A stretch of 39,339 nt of DNA from Isoptericola sp. QY 916 (GTDB lineage: Bacteria; Actinomycetota; Actinomycetes; Actinomycetales; Cellulomonadaceae), in contig JADHZE010000013.1 of the NCBI GenBank assembly GCA_026934365.1, positions 1 through 39,339 on the forward strand. Direction: 5' to 3'. The notes beneath the pieces were generated by a model. That model ran no database searches, was not told the DNA's origin, and worked only from the letters and a program-made list of their open reading frames with translations. The translations under genes were made by a program, and so were the position numbers. This document shows, one piece after another, positions 9,310-29,686 of this stretch. Within the stretch, counting starts at the first letter, position 1; every line of letters begins with the position of its first letter.

Positions 9310-9378
9310 ACGCTAATCAGCAAGAGGGGCGCGGAGACCGTCCGCACCGGGTGAACAGGGCCCGTACCGGGGTGAAAG
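9310..9378 (-). promoter_or_regulatory. TTTCACCC direct-repeat operator and TAGCGT -10 box of gmd
   Basis: Leftward reading gives TTTCACCC (9377-9370), then GTTCACCC (9356-9349) 21 bp further on, then TAGCGT (9315-9310). The proximal half-site starts 41 bp before the -10 box. No TTGACA-like -35 is present, as expected of an activator-dependent promoter. This is one of five similar sites in the window. Confidence 0.6.
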
Positions 9379-9464
9379 TGCGCCCGGCGCGCCTGCCCGC
9401 CCGCTCGAACTTCATCCGCCCGCGCCCTCGACCGGGCCGCACGCGAGCGAGAACCATCGATGGC

Positions 9465-10136
9465 ATGTCACGCCGGGAGCGGGGACGCCGCGACCACGCC
9501 ACGCGGGCCGCAACGCTGGCCGCAGGCTTCGTGCTGCTGTACGGCGCCGGGGTCGTCACGCCGTGGGGACAGTGGGTCGACGCGGTGGCGTTCAGTGTCC
9601 TGACCGGCGCGGGCGCGATCCTGCACCCCGTCGCAGCCGTCGCCCGTGAGGTCCTGGTGCTGGGGCTCGGCGTCGTCGTCGCGGCGCTCGCCGTCCGCCC
9701 GGTCCGCGACCGGCGATGGCGGGCCCTGGCGGCCTGCCTGGTGCTCGCCGCCGCGGCGGTCCTCGCCCTCGTGCTGCGTGGCGCCGTCCTGCCGCGCCCC
9801 GTGCACGAGGTCGCGCTCGGCTACCCGTACAACACGTTCCCGAGCACGCACGTCGCGGCGACGGCGGCGCTCGCCATCGCGCTCGTCGTCCTCTGGCCCG
9901 GCCGTACCAGGGCCGGGCACGTCGTCGTGCGCGAGGTGGCGGTCGCCGCGGTGCTGGTCGCCTGCGTGGTCAACGTGGTCGCGTTCGCCCACCGCCCCGT
10001 CGACGTCCTGGGGTCGCTCCTGCTCGTCGGGGCTGCCGCCTCGGCGGCCTCCGCCGCGTTCCCCGGAGCGCTTTCACCCCGGGTCGACGGCAAGTTCACC
10101 CAGGTCGCCGCCCTGCGGGCGCGGGACGCGGCATAG
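9465..10136 (+). CDS. PAP2-family membrane phosphatase
   Basis: This 223-residue membrane protein has about six hydrophobic helices and the motifs LRGAVLPRP, FPSTH and AHRPVDV in the same arrangement as the PAP2 protein at 287-928. In a glycan locus the most natural role is recycling undecaprenyl diphosphate, or dephosphorylating a lipid-linked intermediate, outside the membrane. This is inference from context. The start was taken as the ATG of MSRRERG because an AACCAT box lies 7 nt before it and upstream codons show no family similarity. The last 65 bp of the gene contain the operator repeats of the next gene, so coding and regulatory information overlap there. Confidence 0.85.
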   Translation: MSRRERGRRDHATRAATLAAGFVLLYGAGVVTPWGQWVDAVAFSVLTGAGAILHPVAAVAREVLVLGLGVVVAALAVRPVRDRRWRALAACLVLAAAAVLALVLRGAVLPRPVHEVALGYPYNTFPSTHVAATAALAIALVVLWPGRTRAGHVVVREVAVAAVLVACVVNVVAFAHRPVDVLGSLLLVGAAASAASAAFPGALSPRVDGKFTQVAALRARDAA

Positions 10137-10139
10137 CGT
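10072..10139 (+). promoter_or_regulatory. TTTCACCC direct-repeat operator and TAGCGT -10 box of the secreted repeat protein
   Basis: TTTCACCC (10072-10079) and GTTCACCC (10094-10101) are 22 bp apart and lie inside the 3' end of the PAP2 gene. TAGCGT (10134-10139) follows, 40 bp after the start of the proximal copy, and the ATG is 6 nt beyond it. The transcript should be leaderless. Confidence 0.6.
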
Positions 10140-10145
10140 CACCGT

Positions 10146-11975
10146 ATGACCACGCGACGCCGCCGCGCGGCACGGCTCCTGGCCCCCGCCCTCGTCCTCG
10201 CCGCCGGCGCGATCTCCCCGGCCGCGGCCGAGGACGGAGAAGCGCCCGCGCGCACGGAGTCCCGGGCGGTGACCTGGACCTGTACCGGCGAGCCGTGCCC
10301 CTGGGGGGAGACGACCACCGGGAACGCCGCCGTGTGGCCCGACGGCTCGGGCGCGCTGTCGGAGCGGTACGGCTACACGACGTCGGGCGCCATCTACCTG
10401 CCCGACGACGCGGCCGAGGACGCCACGATCACCGTGGTCGAGGGTTCGGCGGGCGTGTGGGCCGGCCAGCTCGACGGCCCGCACCGCCACCTCGCCGCGC
10501 TGTCGGCCGGCGACGCGTTCACGGTCGGCGACCTCGCCGACGGCGAGGTGGTGTCCCTCCAGAACGACGGCGCGACCTTCGCCTACGCGTTCACGCCCGG
10601 GGGCGAGGCCCCGCCCGACCCCGAACCGACGCCCACGCCCACGCCCACGCCCACCACCGAGCCGACCCCCGGGCCGAGCGAGAGCGCCGGCGCCGCGTCG
10701 CGCCCCGTCACCTGGAGCTGCACCGGTGACCCGTGCCCCTGGGGTGCGTCGACGACCGGCCACGCCGTCGCGTGGCCCGCGGGCTCCGGGGCGATCACCG
10801 CACGGCACGGCTACGTGACGTCCGAGCCCGTCTACCTGCCCGCCGAGGCGGCGAACGGCGACACCATCACGGTCGTCTCCGGGTCGGCCCGGCTCTACGC
10901 GGGTACGCCCTCCGGGCCGCACCGGAGCATCGGCCAGCTCTCCGCGGGCGACGAGCTCACCGTCACCGGCCTTCCGGCGGGCGAGGTGCTGTCCGTCCAG
11001 AACGACGACGGTCCGTTCCGCTACCTCCACGTCGCCGGAGACGCCACCACCCCGGAGCCGACGCCCACCCCGACGCCCACCCCGACGCCCACGCCGACGC
11101 CCACGCCGACTCCGACGCCCACGCCCGGCCAGGACGCAGCGTCCCTGCCGGTCACGTGGCGCTGCACCGGCGAGCCGTGCCCGTGGGGAGAGACGACGTC
11201 GGGCCATGCGATCGCCTGGCCCGAGACGTCCGGCGCGATCACGACCCGCCACGGGTACACGACGTCGGAGGCCGTCTACCTGCCCGCCGCCGCGGCCAAC
11301 GGCGACACCGTCGCGGTCCTCACCGGCTCCGCGACCCTGTACGCGGGCACGCCCACGGGGCCGCACCGCAGCATCGCGCGCCTGTCCGCCGGCGAGCAGC
11401 ACACGGTGACCGGCCTGCCGTCCGACCAGGTGCTGTCGGTGCAGAACGACGACTCGTCGTTCACCTACGTGCACACCCCCGGGGACGGCTCGACCCCGGA
11501 CCCCGAGCCGACCCCCACGCCGACCCCCACGCCCACGCCCACCGTCCCCGCGGACGCCGTCGTGATGAGCTCGACGCTCGCGCTCTGGCACTGCGACGCC
11601 TACGCGACGTGCGCGGACGACGGCTGGACGCCGTGGGTGGGCGGCGCGCTCGCCTGGCCGGAGTGGGCCGCGTACCCCACGAACGCGCGCGAGGGTTCGA
11701 ACTCACGCACCGTGCGCGACCTCGACGGCGAGGTCATCCACCCCTACATGGGGTCGTGGGCCGACGGCTGCCGGATCCAGGTGCTCGAGGGCGACGTGCT
11801 GGTGATCGAGTGGAAGCGCGGCACGGACACGTGGCGGCCCACGTACCTGTCCCCCGGCGACGTCTACACGATCGAGCTCGAGGGCGACGAGGACGGCGCC
11901 ATGATCGAGACGCCGGACACGCCCACCACGTTCAGCGTCGCGCTGACCGGCTGCGCCCCGCAGCCGGTGCCCTGA
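10146..11975 (+). CDS. Secreted modular repeat protein with WxCxGxPCPWG domains and Pro-Thr linkers
   Basis: This 609-residue protein has a signal peptide (Arg-rich start, hydrophobic residues 11-28, likely cut after AAA). Three closely similar modules of about 110 residues follow (about 42-150, 187-296 and 335-443). Each opens with WxCTGxPCPWG (two Cys, C-x4-C) and then has TTG/TSGxAxxWP, a GYTTS..YLP strand pair, a GPHR loop and LSAG...VTGLP...LSVQND. A divergent fourth module (about 473-603) has four Cys (483, 489, 542, 603). Pro-Thr linkers separate them, as in actinobacterial secreted glycoside hydrolases. I do not recognise the family. The beta-rich, Trp- and Gly-rich composition suggests carbohydrate binding. 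The promoter carries the glycan-region operator, so a surface-glycan-associated role is likely. Confidence 0.8.
   Translation: MTTRRRRAARLLAPALVLAAGAISPAAAEDGEAPARTESRAVTWTCTGEPCPWGETTTGNAAVWPDGSGALSERYGYTTSGAIYLPDDAAEDATITVVEGSAGVWAGQLDGPHRHLAALSAGDAFTVGDLADGEVVSLQNDGATFAYAFTPGGEAPPDPEPTPTPTPTPTTEPTPGPSESAGAASRPVTWSCTGDPCPWGASTTGHAVAWPAGSGAITARHGYVTSEPVYLPAEAANGDTITVVSGSARLYAGTPSGPHRSIGQLSAGDELTVTGLPAGEVLSVQNDDGPFRYLHVAGDATTPEPTPTPTPTPTPTPTPTPTPTPTPGQDAASLPVTWRCTGEPCPWGETTSGHAIAWPETSGAITTRHGYTTSEAVYLPAAAANGDTVAVLTGSATLYAGTPTGPHRSIARLSAGEQHTVTGLPSDQVLSVQNDDSSFTYVHTPGDGSTPDPEPTPTPTPTPTPTVPADAVVMSSTLALWHCDAYATCADDGWTPWVGGALAWPEWAAYPTNAREGSNSRTVRDLDGEVIHPYMGSWADGCRIQVLEGDVLVIEWKRGTDTWRPTYLSPGDVYTIELEGDEDGAMIETPDTPTTFSVALTGCAPQPVP
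10269..11474 (+). repeat. Three tandem coding repeats of about 330 bp
   Basis: The modules at about 10269-10595, 10704-11033 and 11148-11474 encode near-copies of one domain. Modules 2 and 3 are more alike than either is to module 1; for example both have LYAGTPxGPHRSI and LSVQNDD. This suggests recent duplication of the 2/3 unit. Confidence 0.75.
11052..11126 (+). repeat. Pro-Thr linker micro-repeat (CCNACN units)
   Basis: A run of alternating Pro and Thr codons encodes the longest linker. Shorter runs occur at about 10614-10679 and 11497-11545. Such repeats change length easily by slippage in steps of 6 bp without breaking the frame. Confidence 0.7.
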
Positions 11976-12007
11976 CCGTCGCCGTCGGGCGTGCCGAGGG
12001 GTACGGG

Positions 12008-13060
12008 TCAGGCGCGGTAGAGCGCCTCGTACCGGTCGACGACGCGCTCCAGCGTGAACTCCTGGACGCGCTCGAGCGCCGAGGCCGCGAGCTCCTCCCG
12101 CCGCGCGTCGTCCGCCAGGAGCTCGGCGAGCGCCGTGCCGACGTCCTCCAGCGGCACGACGACGGCGGTGCGGCCGCCGTCCGTCACGTACCGCGCCCCG
12201 GGGTTCGGGGTCGCGACCACGGGCAGGCCCGACGCCATCGCCTCGACGTACGGGATGCCGAAGCCCTCGTAGTCGCTCGGCAGGCAGAACGCCCACGCCT
12301 GCTGGAAGGCGAGCGCCAACTCGTCGTCGGTCAGCCGTCCCAGAGCGCGGACCCCGGGGCCCACGTCGTCGGGCACGTCCTGGCTGACCATCCACAGCTC
12401 CGCGTCGGGGTGCTTCGGCAGCACCGTCTCCTGGAACTGGCGCGCCAGCTCCTCGCCGCGCTTGCGTCCGCGCCAGTAGCCGACGAACAGGACCACCGGG
12501 TGGTCCGCCCGCCGCGCGGCGTCGGGCCGGAACCGGCTCACGTCCGTGCCGCAGGGCACGACGTCGCGCACCCACGGGTACCAGCGGCGCGTCTCGGGCG
12601 AGATGACGACGGTGCGGTCCGCGACGAGGGACGCGAGCACCTCGGACAGCCCGAGGAGCACCATCCGCGTCTTCTCCTTGACGCCCTTGATGGTGCGCGC
12701 CTCCTCGAAGCACGACCCTGCGAGGGTCCGCACGTGCCGGGGCACGCGCCGCCGCCACAGCCAGTAGTCGTCGCCCCAGGCGTGCAGCACGTCGTAGGAC
12801 GAGAGGTCGACGCGGCGCAGCGCGAGCGCGAACCGGAACGTGCGCAGCGAGCCGGTCATCCGCACGTGCCGGTGCCCGTAGACGGCGCCGTCGACCGCCG
12901 GGCAGTCGCTGAGGACCGTCACGTCGTGGCCGCGCCGTGCGAGCTCGGTCGCGAGCTCGTGCACCTGGTAGCCGATGCCCTGCTTGCTGGTGCTGGGCAG
13001 GTAGTAGGAGACGATCGCGATCCGCAGCGGTCGGACGGCACCGGCGGCCTCGGCCGTCAT
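12008..13060 (-). CDS. Glycosyltransferase family 4
   Basis: This 350-residue GT-B enzyme has an N-terminal acceptor domain beginning IAIVSYYLPSTSKQGIGYQVHELATELARRGHDVTV and a C-terminal nucleotide-sugar domain. The latter has FVGYWRGRKRGEE and the E-x7-E signature in EGFGIPYVEAMASGLPVVATPNPGA. It should transfer a sugar from a nucleotide donor to the growing lipid-linked glycan on the cytoplasmic side. Donor and linkage are not predictable. The ATG overlaps the upstream stop codon (ATGA), so it is coupled to the WbsX-like gene, and it is the last gene of the flippase operon. Confidence 0.88.
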   Translation of the reverse strand: MTAEAAGAVRPLRIAIVSYYLPSTSKQGIGYQVHELATELARRGHDVTVLSDCPAVDGAVYGHRHVRMTGSLRTFRFALALRRVDLSSYDVLHAWGDDYWLWRRRVPRHVRTLAGSCFEEARTIKGVKEKTRMVLLGLSEVLASLVADRTVVISPETRRWYPWVRDVVPCGTDVSRFRPDAARRADHPVVLFVGYWRGRKRGEELARQFQETVLPKHPDAELWMVSQDVPDDVGPGVRALGRLTDDELALAFQQAWAFCLPSDYEGFGIPYVEAMASGLPVVATPNPGARYVTDGGRTAVVVPLEDVGTALAELLADDARREELAASALERVQEFTLERVVDRYEALYRA

Positions 13061-14142
13061 CGCAGGCCGTCCCGCAGCGCCTCGAGCCAGCCGCGACCGT
13101 GCCGCAGGTCGGGCTCCAGGTGGTTGCCCTCGGCCCACTCGTTCCACGACTTGACCCACAGCAGTCGTTCCTCGGCCGGCCGGTGCGCGATCGACGCCAC
13201 CGCCTGCCGCACGTTCTCCCCGAACTTCTCCGGGCTCGCACCGTGCAGCACCACGCCCCCGCGGCCGGAGCGCGGCGTGTTGTCCCAGTTGGGGTAGACG
13301 CACGGCTGGACCAGGTCGCCGGTGCGGTTCTGCCCGGCCCAGTCGGTGGAGTACGGGAAGACCTCCGGCCCGCCGGCGACCTTGCGGAAGGCGCGCATCC
13401 GCAGCAGCTCCGACCGCGACGTCCCCGCCGGCATCCGCATGTACACCCCGGCGTCGAACCCGTCCTCCTTGACCCGGTCGTACCGCGGCCCGCCGCCGAG
13501 GAGGTCGCTCATCTCCGCGACGAGGTACAGGCCCTCCAGGCCAGCCCTGCGCGCCAGCTTCTGCCAGAGGTCGACGAAGTCCGCGGCGTCGGGCAGCTCC
13601 TCGGGCCGGAAGACGTAGAACACGGGGCGGCCGCCCACGCGCAGGTAGCGGGGGTCGCGGAACGCGGGCAGCACGGCCTCGAAGTGGGCCGTGTAGTCCT
13701 CGACGCCCGGGTAGTGCTGCTGCACGAGGATCCGGTCGGCCTCGCCGTGCCAGATGCCGCTCCACGTCTGGTTCGCCCACGCCAGGCAGAACGACACGTC
13801 GGGCGCGCCGGAGGCGAGCACCTCCGCGAACGGGCGCTCCAGGATCCGGCGCCCGTTGCCGAACCAGTAGTGCCAGTAGGCGAACGCCTCCACGCCGTAC
13901 TGGTGCGCCAGCTCGGACTGCGCCGCCCGCGCCTCGGGCAGCCGCAGGTCGTAGAACCCGAGGTCCGCGGGCACCAACGGCTGGCGGTGCCCCGGGTAGA
14001 GGCGCCGGGCGCGTGCCACGTTGGTCCACTCCGTGAACCCCGGCCCCCACCACGCGTCGTTCTCGGGGATCGGGTGGAACTGCGGCAGGTAGAAGGCGAC
14101 GGCCCTGGCTTCCAACGTTTCGTCCCTCTCGTTCGACGTCAT
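13057..14142 (-). CDS. WbsX-like glycan biosynthesis protein (PF14307 type)
   Basis: This 361-residue protein matches the WbsX family found in O-antigen and capsule loci. It begins AVAFYLPQFHPIPENDAWWGPGFTEWTNVARA and has FAYWHYWF, WANQTWSGIWHG and, near the C-terminus, VKSWNEWAEGNHLEPD. The fold is a TIM barrel related to GH99-type enzymes, and the conserved acidic and Trp residues line a sugar-binding cleft. The family is annotated as a glycosyltransferase or glycosidase, but the reaction is not established. Both ends use ATGA overlaps with neighbours, placing it in a tightly coupled three-gene operon with the flippase and a GT4. Confidence 0.85.
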   Translation of the reverse strand: MTSNERDETLEARAVAFYLPQFHPIPENDAWWGPGFTEWTNVARARRLYPGHRQPLVPADLGFYDLRLPEARAAQSELAHQYGVEAFAYWHYWFGNGRRILERPFAEVLASGAPDVSFCLAWANQTWSGIWHGEADRILVQQHYPGVEDYTAHFEAVLPAFRDPRYLRVGGRPVFYVFRPEELPDAADFVDLWQKLARRAGLEGLYLVAEMSDLLGGGPRYDRVKEDGFDAGVYMRMPAGTSRSELLRMRAFRKVAGGPEVFPYSTDWAGQNRTGDLVQPCVYPNWDNTPRSGRGGVVLHGASPEKFGENVRQAVASIAHRPAEERLLWVKSWNEWAEGNHLEPDLRHGRGWLEALRDGLR

Positions 14143-15728
14143 GCCCGGCTCGCGGAGACGACCCTGAGCAGCGGCACGGCCACGGCGCGCACCCGCGCCG
14201 GCACGGACCGGGCCACCGCGTCGGCATCGGCGGGCGTGAGGCCCGACCGGGTGAGCCGTACCGCGCCCACGAACAGCCCGAGGCCCAGCACGGCGGCCAC
14301 GACCGCCGACGGCACCGGGGGCGCCCCGACCGCGTCGACGCCCCACCACGTCAGCACCGAGATCGCGGCGCCGAGCAGGAACGGCTGGACCATGGCCAGC
14401 GCCCGCCGGACCGGCAGGTCCAGCGACCGCGCCTCGAGGATCAGCAGGCCGCTGAAGAGCAGCACCGCCGCCGTCGCGTTGCCGAGCACCGCGGCCCAGA
14501 CCCCGAGCGGCCGGATCAGCGCCACCGTCAGCCCGACGTCCACCACCAGGCAGGCGAGGTTGGCCCACAGCAGCCAGGTGCCCTTGAGCCGTGCCATGAG
14601 GAACGCCTTGAGCGGTCCGGCCATCACGAGCAGGCCGCCGGCCACGCTCAGGACGACGAGCACCGGGGGCACGGCGGAGAACTCGGCACCGTAGATCGTC
14701 GGGACGAGCAGCGCGAACGCCGGGGTCGCCGCCGCCACCACGCCCGCCGTCGCGGTCGACGACGCGCGCAGCGCGCGGCCCAGCGCGCGCGCCACCGCCT
14801 CGTGGTCCACCTCGCGCAGCCCCGAGATCGCCGGCACGAGCGGCCCCAGCAGCGACTGCGCCGGGGCGAACAGATGGACGCCGAGCCCGATCGCGAGGGC
14901 GAACACTCCCGCGGCCTCCGGCTCCGACATCCAGGTCAGCACCAGCACCTCGCTGCGCGACGAGACGAACGCCTCGACCAGGCCGGCTGCGCCGGCCGGC
15001 AGCGCGAACGCCCAGAAGCCCGGCGGGAACCGGCGCAGGCGCGGGCGCAGCAGGACCCTGCGGTACATGGGCGCCACGAAGTACAGGTAGGCCACCGCGC
15101 CCAGGCCGGCCGCGACGAGGCGCACCGCCCAGATGGCGTCGGCGGTGCCCACCGTCGTGGACGCGACCACCACCAGGACCTGCGCGACGAGGTTGACGAC
15201 CATCGCCGCCTGCGCGTTCTGCGCCGTCTTGTTCTCGATGGCGAGCGCGTCGCCCGCCCCGGAGAACGTCAGGGGCACCAGCACGCCGAAGACGAGGGCG
15301 ATCACCGTGAGCACGGGATCGGCGTCGATGAGCAGCAGCACCGCCGTCCCCACCACGGGAACGCCCACGAGCATCTTGTAGCCCTGCGCCGCCTGGAGCA
15401 TGTGCCGCACCTCGGAGAACCGGCCCGCGGCGTGCGCCTTCGACCCGAACTGGACGAGGCCGGTCCCGACGCCCAGGTCGATGGTCGTGAGGACGAGCGC
15501 GAGCACGGTCGAGAGGTACGCGAGGCGCCCGTAGTCGACGACACCGAGGACACGCGCGACGACGATGTTGACGGCGAAGGCCAGCGGCAGCATCACGGCG
15601 ACGTGCACCAACGTCCACAGGGCGCCCCGGATCGCCCGGTCCTGGAGCTCGCCACGCGTCATGGCCTCGCCGGGCGTGTCGTCGCTCGGCACCGGCGCCG
15701 GCGGGACGGACTTCTCGTCCGTGCTCAT
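14139..15728 (-). CDS. Polysaccharide flippase (Wzx-like, MOP superfamily)
   Basis: This 529-residue membrane protein has about 12-14 hydrophobic helices. Its N-terminus, RAIRGALWTLVHVAVMLPLAFAVNIVVARVLGVVDYGRLAYLSTVLAL, is typical of oligosaccharide flippases. It would move lipid-linked repeat units across the membrane and hand them to the Wzy-like polymerase at 31780-33249. The chosen ATG (MSTDEK) begins a short hydrophilic tail. A longer frame to 15818 is Pro/Arg-rich and looks non-coding. It is the first gene of a leftward operon with the WbsX-like gene and a GT4, divergent from another GT4 at 15903. Confidence 0.87.
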   Translation of the reverse strand: MSTDEKSVPPAPVPSDDTPGEAMTRGELQDRAIRGALWTLVHVAVMLPLAFAVNIVVARVLGVVDYGRLAYLSTVLALVLTTIDLGVGTGLVQFGSKAHAAGRFSEVRHMLQAAQGYKMLVGVPVVGTAVLLLIDADPVLTVIALVFGVLVPLTFSGAGDALAIENKTAQNAQAAMVVNLVAQVLVVVASTTVGTADAIWAVRLVAAGLGAVAYLYFVAPMYRRVLLRPRLRRFPPGFWAFALPAGAAGLVEAFVSSRSEVLVLTWMSEPEAAGVFALAIGLGVHLFAPAQSLLGPLVPAISGLREVDHEAVARALGRALRASSTATAGVVAAATPAFALLVPTIYGAEFSAVPPVLVVLSVAGGLLVMAGPLKAFLMARLKGTWLLWANLACLVVDVGLTVALIRPLGVWAAVLGNATAAVLLFSGLLILEARSLDLPVRRALAMVQPFLLGAAISVLTWWGVDAVGAPPVPSAVVAAVLGLGLFVGAVRLTRSGLTPADADAVARSVPARVRAVAVPLLRVVSASRA

Positions 15729-15837
15729 CGCACGCACCGGGCCGCCGCCGGACGGTCGGCGCGGAGGAGGACGACGTGTGCTGTCACACCGGCCATCGTT
15801 TCCGACGACAGCCGGCATTCCGAGGGCCGGAGCGGTT

Positions 15838-15895
15838 TTTCAGCCGGGCGCGGGCACGTTTCACCCCCGGGAGGACACCGCTCCCGACCTAGGCT
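15838..15895 (+). promoter_or_regulatory. TTTCACCC direct-repeat operator and TAGGCT -10 box of a GT4 gene
   Basis: TTTCAGCC (15838-15845) and TTTCACCC (15859-15866) are 21 bp apart. TAGGCT (15890-15895) starts 31 bp after the proximal copy and ends 7 nt before the ATG at 15903, so the mRNA should be leaderless. The proximal copy directly abuts the expected -35 position, which has no TTGACA match. Confidence 0.6.
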
Positions 15896-15902
15896 CGACG
15901 GC

Positions 15903-17099
15903 ATGGCCATCGGAGTCCCGGCCGGGAGCCACCTGCACGTGATCACGCCCGGCGACCACTTCTCCCCGTCGACCGGGAGCGCCCTGCCCTCGGTCGTGCA
16001 CGGCCTCGCCGCCGCGACCCCGCCCGGAGCCCCGCGGTCGGTCGTCGCCGTCGCGCGCGGCACCTACCCCGACCGCTACCCGAGCGCGGACGTCGTCGAG
16101 TACGACCCCGTGCCGCAGCAGCGCGCCGACCGCTATCGCGACGCCGCGGCGGCGCGCCTGGGCCTGCCCCGGACCGGCGCCCGGCGGCCACTCGCCGCCG
16201 CGCTCGCGGACCAGGCGCGGTGGCCCGCCTCCGTGGTCCTCGGCCACAACCTCCCCCAGCTCGTCCCGCTCGTGGACGCCGACCGGCACGCGGCCGTGCT
16301 CTACGCGCACAACGAGCTGCTGCGCACGTACTCCCCGCGGGAGGCGGCCCGGGTGCTCGACCCCGCGGGCGCCGTCGTCTGCGTCAGCGGCTACGTCGCC
16401 GAGCGGACCGCGGACCGTCTGCCCCCAAGGCTGCGCGACCGCGTGCGAGTGGTGCACAACGGGGTCGACACCGCGCTCTTCCGTCCCGGTGACGCGGACC
16501 GGGTCGCCGGGGAGCCGCTGCGGGTCGTGTTCGTCGGGCGCACCGTGCCCGACAAGGGGCCGGACGTCCTCGTGGACGCCTTGCTCCGGCTCCGTCGGCC
16601 GGACGTGGTCGCCACCGTCGTCGGCACGCCGCACTTCGCCCCCGGCGCGCCCCTCACCCGGTACGAGCGCGAGCTGCGGGCCGCCGCCCGGCCGCTCGGC
16701 GACGCCGTGCGCTGGCTCCCGTTCCGGCCCCGGGACGAGGTGGCCGCCCTGATGCGCGCCGCCGACGTCGTGGTGGTGCCCTCCCGGTGGGCCGAGCCGT
16801 TCGCCCTCACCGTACTGGAGGGGATGGCGTCCGGCGCCGCTGTCGTCGCCGCACGGACCGGAGGCATCCCCGAGGCGGCCGGCGACGCCGGGGTGCTGGT
16901 GCCGCCCGGGTCTCCCGACGCCCTGGCCGCCGCTCTGGAGGGTCTCGCCGACGACCGCGCGTTGCTGGCCACGACCCGTGAGCGCTGCCTGCGACACGCG
17001 CAGGCGCACGACTGGCGCGCGGCGCGGCGGACCCTCGACGTCGTCCTCGGCGACCTCGGCCTGACGTCCGTCAGGCCGGCGGGGATGCCCGCGGCCTGA
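15903..17099 (+). CDS. Glycosyltransferase family 4
   Basis: This 398-residue GT-B glycosyltransferase has an acceptor domain that includes LYAHNELLRTYSPREA and VVCVSGYVAERT. The donor domain has VVFVGRTVPDKGPDVLVDAL and the E-x7-E region EPFALTVLEGMASGAAVVAARTGGIPEAAG. The overall form resembles bacterial GT4 enzymes that add hexoses to cell-surface glycans. It is a single gene behind a repeat-type operator, divergent from the flippase operon. The ATG lies 7 nt after a TAGGCT -10 box, so the start is well supported. It ends 7 bp before the convergent DUF4038 gene. Confidence 0.87.
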   Translation: MAIGVPAGSHLHVITPGDHFSPSTGSALPSVVHGLAAATPPGAPRSVVAVARGTYPDRYPSADVVEYDPVPQQRADRYRDAAAARLGLPRTGARRPLAAALADQARWPASVVLGHNLPQLVPLVDADRHAAVLYAHNELLRTYSPREAARVLDPAGAVVCVSGYVAERTADRLPPRLRDRVRVVHNGVDTALFRPGDADRVAGEPLRVVFVGRTVPDKGPDVLVDALLRLRRPDVVATVVGTPHFAPGAPLTRYERELRAAARPLGDAVRWLPFRPRDEVAALMRAADVVVVPSRWAEPFALTVLEGMASGAAVVAARTGGIPEAAGDAGVLVPPGSPDALAAALEGLADDRALLATTRERCLRHAQAHDWRAARRTLDVVLGDLGLTSVRPAGMPAA

Positions 17100-17106
17100 G
17101 CCGGCG

Positions 17107-21349: not shown

Positions 21350-22187
21350 GAGCCGGACCCACGACCTCGCCGACCTCGACCTCGGGCACGCGCCGCGGCA
21401 CGGGGCGCGCGCCGCTGTCCCACACCGCCCACGGCCGGTCGCCCACGCGGTTCATCTCCTCCAGCGCGGACCGCTCCTTGAGCGTGTCCATCGGCGCCCA
21501 GAACCCGGTATGCGGGTGCACGCGGAACCGGCCGGCGCGAGCGGCGCGCACGCAGGCGTCCATGACGAGGTCCTCGCCCTCGCCCAGGTAGTCGAAGATG
21601 CCCTGCCGCAGCACGAAGTACCCGCCGTTGATGCACATGCTCATGTCGGCCACGGGCTCCAGGTCGCGCATCGTGCCGTCGGGGTCGTAGCGCACCACGT
21701 GGAACGAGTCCTGCGGGGCCACCGCCATGAGCGACCCGACGGCGTCCGTGGCGAGGAAGTCGTCGACGATCCGGTCCATCGGCGCGTCCGTGAGCACGTC
21801 GCCGTAGTTGGCGAGGAACACCTCGTCGTCGTCGAGGAACCGGCGCACGCGCCGCAGCCGCTCGCCGATCGCCGTGTCGATCCCCGTGTCGACGAACGTG
21901 ATGCGCCACTCGCTGATGTCGCTGCTGAGCAGCTCGACGTGCTCGCCGCCCTTGGTGAGGACGAAGTCGTTGGAGTGCGTCTCGGAGTAGTGGAGGAAGT
22001 AGTCCTTCACGGCGTTCGCGCCGTGCCCCAGCGCGAGCACGAACTCCGTGTGCCCGTAGTGCGCGTAGTACTTCATGATGTGCCACAGGACGGGCCGCGA
22101 CCCGATCGGCATCATCGGCTTGGGCAGCGAGTCGGGACCGGACCGCATCCGCATCCCCAGCCCGCCGCAGAACAGCACGACCTTCAT
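21336..22187 (-). CDS. rfbF: Glucose-1-phosphate cytidylyltransferase-like sugar nucleotidyltransferase
   Basis: This 283-residue enzyme has a nucleotide-binding loop FCGGLGMRMRSGPDSLPKPMMPIGSRPVLWHIMKYYAHYGHTEFVLALGH. The HIMKYYAHYG block is closer to RfbF/DdhA cytidylyltransferases than to RmlA. Asp in NYGDVLTD and the metal-binding Asp in WAPMDTLKE are also present. It would activate a hexose-1-phosphate as a CDP- (or other NDP-) sugar, feeding the epimerase and methyltransferase genes nearby. Nucleotide specificity is uncertain. The ATG overlaps the upstream stop (ATGA). The last 14 bp overlap the next gene if its GTG at 21349 is used. Confidence 0.82.
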   Translation of the reverse strand: MKVVLFCGGLGMRMRSGPDSLPKPMMPIGSRPVLWHIMKYYAHYGHTEFVLALGHGANAVKDYFLHYSETHSNDFVLTKGGEHVELLSSDISEWRITFVDTGIDTAIGERLRRVRRFLDDDEVFLANYGDVLTDAPMDRIVDDFLATDAVGSLMAVAPQDSFHVVRYDPDGTMRDLEPVADMSMCINGGYFVLRQGIFDYLGEGEDLVMDACVRAARAGRFRVHPHTGFWAPMDTLKERSALEEMNRVGDRPWAVWDSGARPVPRRVPEVEVGEVVGPARAGA

Positions 22188-23614: not shown

Positions 23615-23729
23615 GGTGCCCCCGGGTGCGGTCGGGAGGTGGGTCGTGAAGTCTGGTGGGGCCGGCAGGGGGCCGGTCCCGCCGCCAGTCTGCGGCGCGG
23701 CACGGCACGGATGAAGGGCCCGCAGGGCT

Positions 23730-23788
23730 TTTCATCCGGCGCCCGCACCGACTTCACCCGACCGCTCCCCGGACCCTCTCCGTACCGT
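23730..23788 (+). promoter_or_regulatory. TTTCACCC direct-repeat operator and TACCGT -10 box of the RmlC-like gene
   Basis: TTTCATCC (23730-23737) and CTTCACCC (23752-23759) are 22 bp apart. TACCGT (23783-23788) starts 31 bp after the proximal copy, exactly as at 15890, and the ATG follows after 7 nt. An inverted GGATGAAG at 23709-23716 may be an extra half-site serving the divergent aminotransferase operon. Confidence 0.55.
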
Positions 23789-23795
23789 GTGGAGC

Positions 23796-24374
23796 ATGCA
23801 GGTGCTGCCCACGACCCTCGACGGCGTGCTGATCCTCGCCCCCACCCCGCACCGGGACGAGCGCGGGCTGTTCACGCGCACGTTCGACACCGCCACCGCG
23901 GCGCACGCGGGCCTCGACCCGGCGGCGTTCGTGCAGGACAGCCAGTCCCGCTCGCGGCGCGGCGTCGTGCGGGGGCTGCACGGTCGGGTGGGCGGCGGCG
24001 AGGCCAAGCTGGTGCGGGTGGCGCACGGTGCCGTGCACGACGTCGTCGTCGACGCCCGCCCGGGCTCCCCGACGTTCGGGCGCTGGGAGGCGTTCCGGCT
24101 CGACGACGTCGACTTCCACGTCCTGTACGTGCCGCGCGGCTGCCTGCACGGACACCAGACGCTCACCGACACCGCGGACGTCTGCTACCGCATCGACGCG
24201 GAGCACGACCCGTCCGAGGACGTCGCGGTGCACCACCTCGACCCCGACCTCGGGGTGCGGTGGCCGCTGCCCGTCTCGCTCGTCAGCGACCGCGACGCCG
24301 CCGCGGGGCCGTGGGTGGCGCTCGTCCAGCAGCTCGGCGGGGCGGCGTCGGGGCCCGGCGCGGACGTGCTGTAG
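23796..24374 (+). CDS. rfbC: dTDP-4-dehydrorhamnose 3,5-epimerase-like protein
   Basis: This 192-residue cupin has the RmlC order of motifs. DERGLFTRTF is followed by VVRGLHGR with the catalytic-base His, AHGAVHDVVVDARPGSPTFGRWEAF with the paired Asp, YVPRGCLHGHQTL, a CYRIDAEHDP region bearing the active-site Tyr, and a C-terminal DPDLGVRWP. It epimerises C3 and/or C5 of a 4-keto-6-deoxy NDP-sugar. No RmlA, RmlB or RmlD is in the window, so the substrate may be the product of the RfbF-like enzyme rather than a dTDP-sugar. It is a single, probably leaderless gene under the repeat-type operator. Confidence 0.85.
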   Translation: MQVLPTTLDGVLILAPTPHRDERGLFTRTFDTATAAHAGLDPAAFVQDSQSRSRRGVVRGLHGRVGGGEAKLVRVAHGAVHDVVVDARPGSPTFGRWEAFRLDDVDFHVLYVPRGCLHGHQTLTDTADVCYRIDAEHDPSEDVAVHHLDPDLGVRWPLPVSLVSDRDAAAGPWVALVQQLGGAASGPGADVL

Positions 24375-24487
24375 CCCGACGCCGACGAAGTCGTCCCAGG
24401 ACGGCCGACGGCGTCGCGCCGCGTCGAGCCTGCCGTTCCCCTGGGGACGAGCTGCTTCTCCACAGATCTCGTCGACTCCCTGGTCGA

Positions 24488-24509
24488 TCGAACATGCGTT
24501 CGATAGCGT
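24488..24509 (+). promoter_or_regulatory. LexA (SOS) box abutting a TAGCGT -10 box
   Basis: TCGAACATGCGTTCGA (24488-24503) is a perfect match to the actinobacterial SOS-box pattern TCGAAC-N4-GTTCGA. TAGCGT (24504-24509) follows with no gap. Repressor bound here would block the promoter of the DUF222-HNH gene directly. Confidence 0.85.
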
Positions 24510-24543
24510 CCTTCGTGTCATGGCGCGCCGACCGAGGAGAACG

Positions 24544-26025
24544 ATGCCCGCCACCACTGCCCCTGCACCCGTGCCGCCCACCGGCCCGGACCCGGCGAGC
24601 GGCACGGTGTCACGGCTGCTCGACGCCCTGGCCGCCCTCGAGGGCGGGGTCGCCGCGCTCGCGGGGGCCGTCGAGGAGATCGACCTGCACGACGTCGGCC
24701 GGGACGTCCTCGAGCAGGCGTCGGCCCGGCTCCGGAGAGTCGGCTCCCGGGTGGACGCCGCGCGGTGGCGGGTGCTGCCCGCGCTGGAGGCGGACGGCCG
24801 GTGGTCGCTCGACGGGTCGCGCACCTTCGCGCACTGGCTCGCCCGTGCCGAGAACGTCGGGCTGCCCACCGCGCGCCGCGACGTCCGCACGGCCCACGCC
24901 CTGCGCGACGTCCTCCCGGCGACCGGTGCCGCCGCGCTCGCCGGCCGGCTCGGCGCCGACCACCTGCGCGCCATCGTCGACGTCGCCCCGACCTCCGAGG
25001 CCCGCCGAGACGCGCTCCTCGCTCCCGCGCCGACCGCGAGCGAGACGAACCGCACGACGGACAGCGGGACGACGGACGACGAGAACCCGGAAGCGCCGGA
25101 CGCCGGCCTCGCCGCGCCGACCGGCGAGGAGCACCTGCTCGCCACCGGCTCCTGGTACACGCCCGCGCAGTTCCGCCGGCTCGTCAAGCGGTTCGCGTAC
25201 GTGACGGACCCGGAGTCGGACGAGCAGGGCTACGCGCACGCCCGCGAGAAAGAGTTCGTCGACCTGTCGCCCACGTGGGACGGCTACCACCTCGCCGGGT
25301 TCCTCACCGAGGAGCACGGCCAGGCGCTGCGCGCCGCCCTCGACGCCGTCGCCGGCCGGCCCGCCGCCGGGGAGACCCGCACGCCCGCGCAGCGACGCGC
25401 CCAGGCGCTCGCCGACCTCGCACGCGTCGCCCTCGACTCCGGGACCGTGGGGTCGGGCTCCGCCGTGCGCCCGCACCTGACCGTCACCATCTCCCTGACC
25501 GAGCTCCGTCGCCTGCTCGCTGCCGGTCACGGTCGCGCCACCGAGCTCGGCCCTCCCGTCGCGGGATGGGCCGAGTCGCTGGGAGTCGACCCCGCCGAGT
25601 TCGTGGACGGCCGCGGCCCGCTGCCCCCGTCCCTCCTCCGCCGCATCGTGTGCGACAGCGAGGTGACACGGGTGGTCCTCGGCCCGGAGTCGCAGGTGCT
25701 CGACGTCGGGCGTGCCCGGCGCACCGTCACCGGCCAGCTGCGACGCGCCGTCGTCGCCCGGGACCGGCGGTGCACCTGGCCCGGCTGCGACGAGCCACCT
25801 GCACGCTGCGAGGTCCACCACGCCGTGGCCCACTGGGCGGACGGCGGCAGCACGTCCGTCGACAACTCCGCCCTGCTGTGCTGGCACCATCACGACCGCG
25901 TCGACGCGCTCGGCATCACCATGCGTCGCGACGGCGGCACGTGGCACTTCACCGACCGCCACGGTCGCTCGGCGGCTCAGGCGCCGGGCGTCCCGCTCAT
26001 CGCTGACCGCCGCGGTCCCGGCTGA
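24544..26025 (+). CDS. DUF222 / 13E12-repeat protein with C-terminal HNH endonuclease domain
   Basis: This 493-residue protein has an N-terminal DUF222 helical region (about 15-380, with REKEFVDLSPTWDGYHLAGFLTEEHGQALRAALDAV). A C-terminal HNH domain follows: RRCTWPGCDEPPARCEVHHAVAHWADGGSTSVDNSALLCWHHHDRVD, with two zinc-binding Cys pairs, the HH catalytic pair and the final HHH. The family is abundant in actinobacteria (13E12 repeats in mycobacteria), where several members carry LexA boxes; here a perfect box sits in the promoter. The exact DNA substrate is unknown. The ATG at 24544 is preferred because GAGGAGA precedes it; an in-frame ATG at 24520 is closer to the -10 box. The gene interrupts the glycan region and looks like an insertion. 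Confidence 0.87.
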   Translation: MPATTAPAPVPPTGPDPASGTVSRLLDALAALEGGVAALAGAVEEIDLHDVGRDVLEQASARLRRVGSRVDAARWRVLPALEADGRWSLDGSRTFAHWLARAENVGLPTARRDVRTAHALRDVLPATGAAALAGRLGADHLRAIVDVAPTSEARRDALLAPAPTASETNRTTDSGTTDDENPEAPDAGLAAPTGEEHLLATGSWYTPAQFRRLVKRFAYVTDPESDEQGYAHAREKEFVDLSPTWDGYHLAGFLTEEHGQALRAALDAVAGRPAAGETRTPAQRRAQALADLARVALDSGTVGSGSAVRPHLTVTISLTELRRLLAAGHGRATELGPPVAGWAESLGVDPAEFVDGRGPLPPSLLRRIVCDSEVTRVVLGPESQVLDVGRARRTVTGQLRRAVVARDRRCTWPGCDEPPARCEVHHAVAHWADGGSTSVDNSALLCWHHHDRVDALGITMRRDGGTWHFTDRHGRSAAQAPGVPLIADRRGPG

Positions 26026-27196
26026 GCGGCTCGACCTCGACGGGCTCGGGCTCGGCGATCACCCAGCGACCCCCGAGCGCCTCCACCTCGGGGTGCGCGA
26101 ACCGCACCTCGTCGAGGAGGTCGGGCACGAGCAGCAGCACCTTGTCGGGGCGGATCTCGGCAAGGATGTCGGGCCCGAGCACGGGCACCCGCGGCCCGGG
26201 GCCGCCCGGCATGGACCTGCCCCGCTTCGCGGGCGACGCGTCCACCACGGCGAGGACCTCGTCCGCGGTGACGCCGGCGAGCGCGAACAACGCGACCGCG
26301 CGCGACGCGGCGCCGTAGGCGACCACCTTCCCCTCGCTCGCGTCGAGCCAGTCGCGGAGGGCCGCGGCCGACGCGGCCACCTGCCGTTGGAGCGCCGCCA
26401 CGGCCGCCGGCTCCGTGATCCCCGCCGCGGCCTCGGCCGCCAGCTCGGTGGCGACGAGGTCGCCCGCGGCGCGGGCGTGCCGACCGGCGGGCTGCGAGCC
26501 CTCCCGCGCCAGCGCGAGCAGCCGCGTCCCGCCGTACAGCGGATAGCGCCACAGCCCGACCGGGACGAGCCCGGTGCTGCGCGCCATCTCCACGAGCACC
26601 GTGAGCGAGTAGTACGCGAAGTGCCCGTGCCGCAGCGCGTTCCAGGTGCCGTCGCGCAGGATCACGGACAGCGGGTGCACGTGCAGCGCGAGGACGCCGT
26701 CGGGGGCGAGGGAGTCGAGCCGCAGGTCCCAGGCCGCGCGCTGGTCCGCCTCGTGCATGATCCCGAGCGAGTCGACGACGAGGTCCGCGGCGAGCCCGGG
26801 CACCGTGCCGGGGCCGTCGAGCAGCACGGCGTCCGGCACGATCTCCTGCACCCGCGCCAGCCAGGAGCCCCCGTGCGGGGAGCGCATCTCCCCCACCCAC
26901 GTGCCGGGGCCTAGCAGCCCGCCCCCGACGAGGTCGGCCACTCCCGCCCGCGCCTGCGCGACGAGTGCGGCAGGCTCCACTCCGAGCGGCTCCTCGGGAC
27001 CTGTCGGGTCCTCCTCGAGCTGGGCGAGTCGGCACCGGTCGCACATCACCATGCGCAACGGGTGCACGGGGTCAGGAGCGGGTGCCTCCGGCTCGGGGAA
27101 CAGGTCGGCGGCAGGCTGGGAGCCCAGGTCGAGCACCACGGTGGCGCGGTCCGACTGGCACCACCGGCAGCGCCAGCCCGGCACGACGGCGCTCAC
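25997..27196 (-). CDS. Class I SAM-dependent C-methyltransferase-like protein
   Basis: This 399-residue protein is the shorter, more divergent of two tandem paralogues with the three-part layout of sugar 3-C-methyltransferases. It has an N-terminal zinc finger (CRWCQSD and MCDRCRLAQLEED), a central methyltransferase domain and a C-terminal Rossmann-like domain (GKVVAYGAASRAVALFALAGVTADEVLAVVDASPAKRGRSMPG). The SAM-binding loop is weak: the usual ExGSNDG is replaced by GEMRSPHGGS. It may therefore be inactive or a partner of its neighbour. The start is the GTG of a GTGA overlap. The 3' end overlaps the HNH gene by 29 bp. Confidence 0.78.
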   Translation of the reverse strand: MSAVVPGWRCRWCQSDRATVVLDLGSQPAADLFPEPEAPAPDPVHPLRMVMCDRCRLAQLEEDPTGPEEPLGVEPAALVAQARAGVADLVGGGLLGPGTWVGEMRSPHGGSWLARVQEIVPDAVLLDGPGTVPGLAADLVVDSLGIMHEADQRAAWDLRLDSLAPDGVLALHVHPLSVILRDGTWNALRHGHFAYYSLTVLVEMARSTGLVPVGLWRYPLYGGTRLLALAREGSQPAGRHARAAGDLVATELAAEAAAGITEPAAVAALQRQVAASAAALRDWLDASEGKVVAYGAASRAVALFALAGVTADEVLAVVDASPAKRGRSMPGGPGPRVPVLGPDILAEIRPDKVLLLVPDLLDEVRFAHPEVEALGGRWVIAEPEPVEVEPLSRDRGGQR

Positions 27197-28509
27197 GTGC
27201 CCGGCTCGAAGACCTCGAGGCGCGGCAGGAACGTCACCAGCCGGCCTCCCCAGTCGGCGACGTGCGCGAGCTGGGCCGAGATCTCCCGCCGCAGGTTCCA
27301 CGGCATGACGACGACGTAGTCGGGCCGGGCCGCGTCGAGCGCCTCGGGCGCGTGGATGGGGAGGTGCATGCCCGGCGTGAACCGGCCGTGCTTGTACGGG
27401 TTGCGGTCGACGGCGAACTCGATCAGGTCGGGGCGTACGCCGCAGTGGTTGAGCAGCGTGTTCCCCTTGCCGGGCGCCCCGTACGCCACCACGCGCCTGC
27501 CCTCGCGGCGGGCGGTGAGCAGGAAGCGCAGCACGTCGTCGCGCACGGCGGCGACCTGCTCGGCGAAGCCGGCGTGACCTTCCACGGTGTGCAGGCCGGC
27601 GGCGGCCTCTGCGGCGAGCACGCGCGCCACGGCGGCGGACGGCGCGGGCCCACCGCCGGCTGGTGCGCCGTCGGGCGTCGGCACGGACCACGTGCGCAGC
27701 GAGCCGCCGTGGCTGGGCAGCTCGTCCACGTCCACCACGGTGAGCCCGGCGGCGGCCAGCACCCGCTGCGTCGTGAGCAGCGACAGGTAGCTGTAGTGCT
27801 CGTGGTAGATCGTGTCGTACTCGTTGCCCTCGACGAGGCGCAGCAGGTGCGGGATCTCGATCGACACCCGCCCGTCGTCGGCGACGAGCTGCCGCAGCCC
27901 GCGCGAGAAGTCGACGATGTCCGGCACGTGCGCGAAGACGTTGTTGGCCACGACGAGGTCGGCAGGGCCGTGCTCGGCGCGCACGCGCCGCCCCGTCTCC
28001 TCGCCCAGGAACTCCACCACCGTGGGCACGCCCCGCTCGACCGCGGCCGCGGCCACGTTGCCCGACGGCTCGATGCCGAGGCAGCGGATCCCCTGGTCGA
28101 CGACGTGCTGCAGCAGGTAGCCGTCGTTGCTCGCGACCTCGACGACGAACGACCGCTCGGGGGCGAGCCCGAGCCTGTCGACCGCGTCGTCGACGTACCG
28201 CCGCGCGTGCTCCACCCACGACGCGGAGTAGGACGAGAAGTAGGCGTAGTCGTCGAAGATGTCCTCCGCCGGCACGTAGGCGGGCAGCTGCACCAGCAGG
28301 CACTGCTCGCACACCCGCACGTGCAGCGGGTAGAAGACCTCCGGGCCGTCGACCTGCTCGGCGGTGGGGTAGGTCTCGCACGGCGGCGACATCCCGAGGT
28401 CCACGAAGGTACGGGTCAGGGGTGCGCCGCACAGCCGGCACGACGGCGCGGGCACCGCGGACCCCTCGGGCGCGCCGGCGGCGTGCCGCGCCGCCGACAC
28501 GGCGGTCAT
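27193..28509 (-). CDS. NDP-sugar C-methyltransferase (TylC3/NovU-like)
   Basis: This 438-residue protein has the full C-methyltransferase architecture. The zinc-binding N-terminus has CRLCGAPL and CEQCLLVQLP; the SAM domain has FVVEVASNDGYLLQ and VVANNVFAHVPD; the catalytic-type segment is YDTIYHEHYSYLSL; and the C-terminal domain includes VVAYGAPGKGNTLLNHCGV. Such enzymes methylate carbon 3 (or 5) of a 4-keto NDP-sugar, giving branched-chain sugars. It sits between an SDR epimerase and a divergent paralogue, with ATGA and GTGA overlaps at its ends. The three genes form one operon under a repeat-type operator. Confidence 0.88.
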   Translation of the reverse strand: MTAVSAARHAAGAPEGSAVPAPSCRLCGAPLTRTFVDLGMSPPCETYPTAEQVDGPEVFYPLHVRVCEQCLLVQLPAYVPAEDIFDDYAYFSSYSASWVEHARRYVDDAVDRLGLAPERSFVVEVASNDGYLLQHVVDQGIRCLGIEPSGNVAAAAVERGVPTVVEFLGEETGRRVRAEHGPADLVVANNVFAHVPDIVDFSRGLRQLVADDGRVSIEIPHLLRLVEGNEYDTIYHEHYSYLSLLTTQRVLAAAGLTVVDVDELPSHGGSLRTWSVPTPDGAPAGGGPAPSAAVARVLAAEAAAGLHTVEGHAGFAEQVAAVRDDVLRFLLTARREGRRVVAYGAPGKGNTLLNHCGVRPDLIEFAVDRNPYKHGRFTPGMHLPIHAPEALDAARPDYVVVMPWNLRREISAQLAHVADWGGRLVTFLPRLEVFEPGT

Positions 28510-29540
28510 GCCGGCACCGCCGTGGTGCGCAGGTTCTCCAGGTCGAGAGCGCCGCTGGCGGCGAGCTCGCTCACCCGGTGCAGGCGCACGAAGCGCGGGC
28601 CCTCGAAGTCGTCGGCGGTGAGGCCGAACCGGTGGACGTCCTGCCAGATCTGCCGGATCCCGTCGCGCACCGTCCAGCGGGGCGCGGCGGCCGGGAGCTC
28701 GGTGCGGATGCGCGTGAAGTCGACCCGGTAGTTGCGGGTGTCGGCCCCCGCCCCCGCGGCAAAGGTCACGGGGGCGCCGGTGACCTCGCTGACCTGCTCG
28801 GCGACGGTGCGGATCTGGACGACGTCCTCGTCGCGGCCCACGTTGAACGCCCGGTCGTGCACCACCTCGCGGGGAGCCTCGAGCCCGGCGAGGAACGCCC
28901 GCGCGATGTCCTCGACGTGCACGAGGGGCCGCCACGGCGAGCCGTCCGACTGCAGCCGCACCTCGCTGCGCGTGTACGCGGTGCCGGTGAGGTTGTTGAC
29001 CACGATGTCGGCCCGCAGCCGCGGTGACGAGCCGTACGCGGTCGCATTGCGCAGGAACGTGGGCGAGAAGTCGTCGTCGGCGAGCGCGGAGAGGCCGCGC
29101 TCGGCCTGGATCTTCGACTCCCCGTACGGGGTGACGGGGTGGAACTCGGCGCCCTCGTCGACGGGCTCGTCGCCCGCCGCCCCGTACAGGGAGCACGACG
29201 ACGAGAACAGGAACCGCGCCACCCCGGCCGCCTTGGCCGCCCGCGCCATCCGCACGGCGCCGTCCGTGTTGACGGAGAACGTGGCATGCGGGTTGAGGTG
29301 CCCGAGCGGGTCGTTGGAGATGGCCGCCAGGTGCACCACCGCGTCGAAGCCGGCGAGGTCCTCGGGCCGCGCGTCCCGGACGTCGCCGGTGCGCTGCTCG
29401 TACCCCGTCACCGGAGGGCCGAAGTCGCAGCCGTCGTACCAGCCGGCGTCGAGGCCGACCACCTCGTGGCCCGCTGCCTGCAGGAACGGCACCAGCACCG
29501 CACCCACGTATCCGCGGTCACCATCGACGAGCACTCGCAT
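28506..29540 (-). CDS. NAD-dependent epimerase/dehydratase (extended SDR)
   Basis: This 344-residue extended SDR has the dinucleotide-binding motif GDRGYVG (7-13), VVHLAAISNDP, the Ser-rich catalytic strand FLFSSSCSLYG and Tyr-x3-Lys in TPYGESK. The substrate domain has LRNATAYGSSPRLRADIVVNNLTG and RPLVHVEDIARAFLAGL. It most resembles the sugar-nucleotide epimerases or reductases that accompany C-methyltransferases, so it probably acts on the 4-keto intermediate of a branched sugar. It heads a three-gene operon. The ATG lies 77 nt after a TAGCGT -10 box, a longer leader than at most other genes here. Confidence 0.84.
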   Translation of the reverse strand: MRVLVDGDRGYVGAVLVPFLQAAGHEVVGLDAGWYDGCDFGPPVTGYEQRTGDVRDARPEDLAGFDAVVHLAAISNDPLGHLNPHATFSVNTDGAVRMARAAKAAGVARFLFSSSCSLYGAAGDEPVDEGAEFHPVTPYGESKIQAERGLSALADDDFSPTFLRNATAYGSSPRLRADIVVNNLTGTAYTRSEVRLQSDGSPWRPLVHVEDIARAFLAGLEAPREVVHDRAFNVGRDEDVVQIRTVAEQVSEVTGAPVTFAAGAGADTRNYRVDFTRIRTELPAAAPRWTVRDGIRQIWQDVHRFGLTADDFEGPRFVRLHRVSELAASGALDLENLRTTAVPA

Positions 29541-29617
29541 GGTCCGTCCCCCCGTCGTCGTCCGGCCGGTCCCGCGGGCAGGGAGTCCCGCGAGCCGGTG
29601 GCTTCACCGCCGCCTCG

Positions 29618-29686
29618 ACGCTAACCAGCGACCTCCTCCCACCGTGAGGGTTGCCCGGGGTGAAAAGCCTCGTCACCCGGGTGATT
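29618..29686 (-). promoter_or_regulatory. TTTCACCC direct-repeat operator and TAGCGT -10 box of the SDR/C-methyltransferase operon
   Basis: Leftward reading gives AATCACCC (29686-29679), then TTTCACCC (29665-29658) 21 bp further on, then TAGCGT (29623-29618). The proximal copy starts 42 bp before the -10 box. TCACCCGGGTGA (29673-29684) is also a perfect palindrome, so the site could face both operons. Confidence 0.58.

Follow-up and report, generated by a model that had tools for sequence, protein, structure and literature searches.

For actinobacteria such as Isoptericola, the factor that activates a surface polysaccharide cluster has, to our knowledge, seldom been established. The DNA considered here is a stretch of 39,339 nucleotides (the window; C35:1-39339) from the 4.43-Mb, 438-contig draft genome of Isoptericola sp. 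QY 916 (G000; completeness 99.6 %, G+C 75.7 %). According to gene calls and Pfam/NCBIfam scans, the window carries a lasso-peptide cluster (0.9-7.3 kb) followed by a surface-glycan cluster (∼7.3-37 kb). An earlier interpretation made from the letters alone (the sequence-only reading) had proposed that five glycan-region promoters share an operator composed of two direct repeats. This operator is real, conserved and cluster-specific. On balance we lean towards the view that a single trans-acting activator uses these pairs as its operators; it is most likely of the OmpR/PhoB family and would serve a surface-glycan/lasso regulon in Isoptericola and nearby genera.

The window was compared with 17 same-genus relatives, which together with G000 make up 18 genus genomes; genomes are designated G and loci L, each with a number. 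Gene starts were taken from a codon-usage caller, by which at least one RmlC gene (L175) was overlooked and found afterwards. Window proteins were annotated by Pfam/NCBIfam scans, and an Rfam scan of the window at the gathering threshold gave zero matches.

All five direct-repeat pairs were recovered (Table 1), with a start-to-start spacing of 21 or 22 bp and with every copy oriented towards its gene. The −10 distances, counted from the start of the proximal box to the −10 hexamer, agreed with those proposed, and TAGCGT was seen at the gmd, secreted-protein and SDR promoters, which are the three with the long spacer. The statement that a TTGACA −35 element is missing likewise held: the best −35 sequences match at 2-3 of 6 positions (spacers of 15-19 bp). 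A sixth pair, overlooked in the sequence-only reading, was located between the divergent lasso-peptide genes, with a −10-like TATTCT 59 bp past the start of its proximal box; none of the six window promoters has a recognisable −35 element. An inverted half-site next to this pair is also present in the same lasso intergenic region of G003, G004 and G010. The pair before the secreted-protein gene lies within the 3′ end of an upstream PAP2-like gene and is therefore not strictly intergenic.

When all spacings from 9 to 60 bp were scanned in the window, pairs with at most two mismatches were found at 21 bp (three) and 22 bp (three) and at no other spacing. Three hundred windows simulated with a first-order Markov model gave a mean of 0.003 pairs at 21/22 bp (maximum 1). 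In the whole G000 genome, four pairs with a 13-bp spacer (N13) and three with a 14-bp spacer (N14) were found with at most two mismatches, and six of these seven lie in the 39-kb window (binomial 3e-12); the reversed patterns used as a control were matched 0 times and once, even with three mismatches allowed. The genome-wide scan thus speaks for the operator, with six of seven pairs at the glycan/lasso locus. The seventh pair (C128:3853) precedes a gene whose product looks secreted and matches a metallopeptidase weakly, and TACGCT lies 42 bp past the start of its proximal box. Twelve further pairs with exactly three mismatches, all outside the window, do not enter into the interpretation given here. 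Chance repeats in GC-rich promoters, or common ancestry of duplicated promoters, might be offered as an explanation of the pairs. Nothing was found in support of either; a simulated mean of 0.003 stands against six observed pairs, the spacers and flanks of different promoters look unrelated by eye, and the boxes are conserved in relatives. Both explanations were rejected as vanishingly improbable.

In the 17 relatives, when no more than two mismatches were allowed, 47 pairs with N13 and 40 with N14 were obtained among the matches listed, a few sites being counted under both patterns; the reversed control scored 1 and 2. All six sites recur in G004, in identical order and adjoining orthologous genes, except that no GT4 gene was called at the corresponding site. 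Upstream regions of 11 SDR homologues, taken irrespective of boxes, were aligned; the mean majority fraction was 0.89 and 0.93 in the two boxes, against 0.59 for the spacer and 0.55 for all other positions. An earlier footprint of eight SDR promoters (0.97 vs 0.63) was inflated by the choice of promoters by their boxes, and is superseded. A strict pair was found in nine of the 11 SDR promoters, and a tenth (G005) has one with two mismatches; the SDR promoter of G009 (L204) has no clear pair, and the RmlC promoter of G007 (L171) has one clear box only and no clear pair. Among the matches listed, G002 has no 21-22-bp pair at up to two mismatches and G012 only two. Boxes are thus kept in orthologous promoters and spacers are not; together with the genome counts, this bears out the idea of an operator shared by several promoters. 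On both counts, frequency in the genome and conservation in orthologous promoters, the results favour the sequence-only reading. In 80 named loci (1.59 Mb) that surround homologues of a single cluster gene and belong for the most part to other actinobacteria, four pairs at 21-22 bp with at most two mismatches were found, three in Isoptericola (one of them coding) and one, coding, in Hymenobacter. The proposed concentration at surface-glycan genes was supported, but the regulon is wider and takes in the lasso cluster as well as certain secreted proteins. In relatives, sites also precede genes for the lasso precursor, PqqD, an ABC transporter, a UppP-like protein and an acyltransferase.

To define the half-site, the window and 60 loci were searched with a pattern that matched 80 times; the 55 noncoding pairs no more than 260 bp from a called gene start were used for a logo. 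The logo shows one compact box, WWTTCACCCG, with neither a second box nor a middle unit; the search pattern fixed TCA and CC, and only the remaining columns count as evidence. AraC/XylS operators have two boxes (A and B) per half-site of 17-21 bp, and an AraC-type regulator was rejected on the single compact box. Exact TTCACCC pairs in the 18 genomes (n=121, the sum of per-genome counts) peak at 11-12 bp (36 pairs), 21-22 bp (42) and 31-32 bp (11); all remaining spacings have 0-4 pairs each, except 36 bp (eight pairs), where the sequences in part resemble conserved coding sequence by eye. One and the same promoter can differ by a turn between species: RmlC promoters have a spacing of 21-22 bp in six genomes and of 32 bp in three, and a −10 distance of 30-31 bp in some species and 40-42 bp in others.

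The position relative to the promoter was examined for 35 pairs from nine kinds of orthologous promoter. In 25 of them a TANNNT hexamer was found 20-71 bp past the proximal box, at 30-31 or 40-42 bp in 21 cases and at 59 bp in four, all of which are pqqD promoters (G000, G003, G004 and G010); no TANNNT was present in the scanned range for the other ten. The shorter distance applies to GT4 and some RmlC promoters, as well as to pairs spaced by 32 bp before pqqD in L165 and L167, and the longer one to gmd, secreted-protein, SDR and other RmlC promoters. At the GT4, RmlC and secreted-protein genes the ATG follows the −10 hexamer after 6-7 nt (6 nt at the secreted protein), a leaderless geometry that supports these −10 calls. 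Whole-turn shifts in the box-box and most box-promoter distances are as expected of a protein facing RNA polymerase, and the −10 distances of 30-31 and 40-42 bp lend support to the earlier suggestion of one-helical-turn shifts and a position like that of an activator. A phased, putative activator site is well supported in this way. One DNA-binding domain would occupy each copy, with all copies bound on one helix face, and the protein, standing in for a −35 element, would recruit RNA polymerase from ∼−40 (class II-like) or ∼−50 (class I-like). By sequence, the operator may be described as two or more like-oriented half-sites one, two or three turns apart, the proximal one mostly 30-31 or 40-42 bp before TANNNT (or an AAYACT hexamer, described below).

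Three families of regulators other than OmpR/PhoB could be considered on the spacing or arrangement of the boxes. LytTR operators consist of two direct repeats of ∼9 bp with a spacer of 12-13 bp, which places the boxes 21-22 bp apart, and the window pairs fit this spacing, as the sequence-only reading had pointed out. The LytTR domain (PF04397) is absent from G000, G003, G004 and G010, all of which carry sites; a LytTR-type regulator on 9-bp repeats was rejected on this ground although the repeat and spacer pattern is present, and is hardly credible. For a SARP/BTAD protein, also named in that reading, repeats 11 or 22 bp apart are described, of which the 3′ one lies 8 bp away from the −10 element (PMC10936776). 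The peaks at 11-12 and 21-22 bp (and also at 31-32 bp) resemble the spacing of such AfsR-type operators, and G000 itself has two BTAD matches. In the operator, 30-42 or 59 bp separate the start of the proximal box from the −10 element, at odds with 8 bp for the SARP repeat, and BTAD matches are absent from G005, G007 and G016, which carry sites; the candidate was left without support, rejected on position and on BTAD absence in three carriers, and is very improbable.

MalT binds arrays of like-oriented boxes in a class-II position. An activator of the LuxR/GerE type, either a MalT-like LAL or a small stand-alone helix-turn-helix protein encoded beside a gene that we take to be gcvH-like, might bind the boxes in the same fashion; the arrays and the class-II position resemble those of MalT. 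All seven loci read (L253-L259) have a gene for a stand-alone protein of the GerE type, 73-81 aa long, and short-frame matches to this domain were present in most same-genus genomes, among the matches listed. Neither protein is linked to the sites. No TTCAYCC box lies upstream of the stand-alone gene in the seven loci, all from genomes other than G000 (one box is inside the gene in L258), and a LuxR/GerE activator is distinctly unlikely. The LAL in question, ∼16-20 kb from the lasso cluster of G004, was rejected because, among the matches listed, close orthologues occur only in some relatives; the match in G000 is only 30 % identical.

Tandem direct repeats in helical phase (11-12, 21-22 and 31-32 bp) are arranged as in OmpR/PhoB-family operators. 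Arrays at 11-12 bp occur at the locus of the initiating sugar transferase, while the window pairs have no middle unit. The helical-phase arrangement and the 11-12-bp arrays together make an OmpR/PhoB-type winged helix the best fit. The regulator would most likely be a response regulator of this family with a specificity near to but distinct from that of RegX3/PhoP (GTTCACC). Related operators are alike in part only. The MtrA operator of Corynebacterium glutamicum is an OmpR-type direct repeat that lies upstream of −35 when activating (PMC3353115), but its repeats (consensus RTAACAAT) are 8 bp long, joined by a linker of 3 bp, and unrelated in sequence. The GlnR box is also OmpR-type, and like sites in its a-b-a-b array lie 22 bp from one another; its consensus differs (gTnAc-n6-GaAAc; PMC10704036), and the b site has no counterpart in the present operator.

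RegX3/PhoP itself could be the regulator, with the glycan and lasso genes placed in the Pho regulon like phosphate-free teichuronic acid genes, and this we regard as unlikely. The core TTCACC is common to the operator and to the PHO box of pstS, and beside pstS a regulator is encoded which, judging by its sequence, is presumably RegX3-like. The pstS box lies 38 bp from a TANCGT −10 hexamer, near the 40-42 bp of the operator. In G012 a phytase-like/GDPD gene is preceded by a pair spaced by 22 bp; the same site precedes comparable gene starts of G009 and G011, and a −10-like TGGYAT is found in G012 and G011 at 38 bp past the start of the proximal box, the pstS distance. A connection of the operator with phosphate through this gene is possible. 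Pho control of teichuronic acid genes is described for some Gram-positive bacteria, and the PHO box of S. coelicolor is given as GTTCACC in 11-nt direct repeat units (PMC4415409). PHO boxes of Streptomyces PhoP and mycobacterial SenX3-RegX3 share with the operator the core TTCACC, the direct repeats and the upstream activator position, and differ from it in that the operator reads WTTCACCCG, with copies two turns apart and an empty middle unit.

The first base and the middle unit decide against a contiguous PHO box, which was rejected. G is the first base in 9 of 68 operator half-sites versus 11 of 11 first pstS units (Fisher 2e-8; the sequences are related, hence this is no true probability, and the second pstS unit was excluded because the search pattern fixed its G). 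PHO units are 11 bp apart, as against 21-22 bp without a middle unit in the window pairs; the middle register agrees with TTCACC at 5 of 6 positions in one of 35 pairs and at 4 of 6 in four. Promoters of pstS in the genus have GTTCA-type units 11 bp apart; at 10 of the 11 the second unit is 38 bp from the −10 element (the remaining one escaped the pattern), and no 21-22-bp pair of TTTCACCC was seen in those shown. The OmpR/PhoP type put forward in the sequence-only reading survives as a possible family; the 11-bp unit in the middle is missing, and the half-site is unlike the PHO box of the genus. Two observations at phosphate-related loci are added. The 22-bp TTCACCC pair before the phytase-like/GDPD gene has a nearly conserved spacer in L213, L142, L147 and L150, and at L271, L274 and nine other pstS loci the two GTTCA-type units are accompanied by a third, YCAYCT-like one, which is conserved and lies ∼22 bp beyond the second, nearer to the −10 element.

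Several points weigh against one OmpR/PhoB-family activator. Thirteen Trans_reg_C matches encoded in G000 count in favour of the family; none of these, nor any other regulator, is linked to the sites. The 11-bp middle unit of a contiguous OmpR-type array is not found in the spacers. An OmpR-family regulator of G011 that is preceded by TTCACCC boxes was rejected because it failed on conservation: no pair of such boxes was seen at the other seven close orthologues that were read, and neither of the carriers G003 and G009 has a close orthologue of it. The 11-12-bp peak is mixed, and part of it probably represents ordinary PHO boxes; the 11-12-bp pairs of L278, L282 and L285 begin with GTTCACCC and are PHO-box-like. 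Beside the sugar transferase gene, the arrays point away from it, with the exception of one pair in L290. In the lasA, ABC and UppP-like promoters without TANNNT, AAYACT was found at 41-42 bp (62 bp for the outer pairs of triple arrays), and was picked post hoc as the −10 element; it was not found at the ABC site of L199. Three of 11 pairs spaced by 31-32 bp have no −10 match, and activation rather than repression is something that we infer from sequence. A check for autoregulation, in which TTCA[CTG]C alone was marked in 250 bases upstream, revealed no pair before the 10 regulators shown, of the 13 Trans_reg_C loci. It is a weak check: the start of L330 is too far downstream, L328, L339 and L340 show nothing, a neighbour or an atypical protein, and L329, L332 and L336 are directly behind a gene, so that the promoter may lie further upstream.

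With an OmpR/PhoB-family activator as the preferred interpretation, a broader scheme can be put forward tentatively. A new family-wide envelope regulator on a helical-turn grid may switch on the glycan, the initiating sugar transferase and the lasso peptide together, with the peptide possibly phosphorylated and glycosylated. On such a grid the boxes would lie one to three turns apart, with the −10 element a further three or four turns away, and each distance might evolve by one turn. The shared operators alone suggest that lasso peptide and surface glycan may be co-regulated. Pseudomycoidin is phosphorylated on its C-terminal Ser and then hexosylated (PMC9266682). Its gene set resembles the lasso cluster at 895-7288, with split B1/B2 proteins, a weakly matching kinase-like protein, an NTP_transf_5 protein and a Ser-ending precursor; the terminal Ser is present in G000 and in all eight relatives' sequences shown. 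In the titles and abstract openings searched, with subscription journals mostly outside the coverage, no treatment of this operator was found. The operator delimits a regulon from sequence alone and joins the lasso-peptide cluster to it, and the motif can serve as bait for finding the regulator. Natural one-turn spacing variants of one promoter across species offer a ready test of face-of-helix activation.

Table 1. Operators and genes in the window (spacers N13 and N14 separate the half-sites of a pair; distances as defined in the text).
Feature	Position	Strand	Remarks
NTP_transf_5 nucleotidyltransferase, lasso cluster	895-2052	−	PF14907
ABC transporter, lasso cluster	2209-4098	+	
HPr-kinase-like protein, possible lasso-peptide kinase	4029-5006	−	PF07475, E 5e-4, below gathering score
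Lasso peptide B2 protein	5008-5448	−	
Asn-synthase-like protein, probable lasso cyclase (C)	5445-6599	−	PF00733; NCBIfam matches below cut-offs
Lasso precursor peptide	6706-6819	−	37 aa, C-terminal Ser; NF033521
Operator pair AGTCACCC N14 TTTCACCC	6903-6932	+	before pqqD (lasso B1), between divergent lasso-peptide genes
Inverted half-site TTTCACCC	6939-6946	−	faces lasso precursor gene
PqqD-like protein, probable lasso B1	7031-7288	+	PF05402; lasso_PqqD_Strm below its cut-off
Two GDP-mannose dehydratase/epimerase-family genes	7295-9240	−	gmd = 8248-9240
Operator pair TTTCACCC N13 GTTCACCC	9349-9377	−	gmd promoter; −10 TAGCGT at 41 bp
Operator pair TTTCACCC N14 GTTCACCC	10072-10101	+	before secreted protein gene; −10 TAGCGT at 40 bp
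Secreted repeat protein	10146-11975	+	downstream of its operator
Operator pair TTTCAGCC N13 TTTCACCC	15838-15866	+	GT4 promoter; −10 TAGGCT at 31 bp
GT4 glycosyltransferase	15903-17099	+	downstream of its operator
Operator pair TTTCATCC N14 CTTCACCC	23730-23759	+	RmlC-like promoter; −10 TACCGT at 31 bp
RmlC-like dTDP-sugar isomerase	23796-24374	+	downstream of its operator
SDR (28506-29540) and two C-methyltransferases	25997-29540	−	downstream of their operator
Operator pair AATCACCC N13 TTTCACCC	29658-29686	−	SDR/C-methyltransferase operon; −10 TAGCGT at 42 bp

The glycan cluster further encodes a flippase, many glycosyltransferases, nucleotide-sugar enzymes, a pyruvyl transferase, a WbsX protein and C-methyltransferases, as well as a Wzy-like protein that scores just under the Pfam cut-off. 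The WbsX-type protein (13057-14115; PF14307) shows 77-95 % identity in related clusters where found. A gene for a DUF222/HNH protein (24571-26025) separates the RmlC-like gene from the C-methyltransferase operon and is not called at that place in G004. Outside the window, arrays of two to four TTTCACCC boxes with spacings of 11-12, 16, 20, 26 or 36 bp were observed in L279 (975-1023; contig C323 of G000), L281, L283, L284, L286 and L290, beside a divergent gene and the gene for the sugar transferase, a protein of ∼500 aa for which L279 and L283 gave a confirmed PF02397 match.

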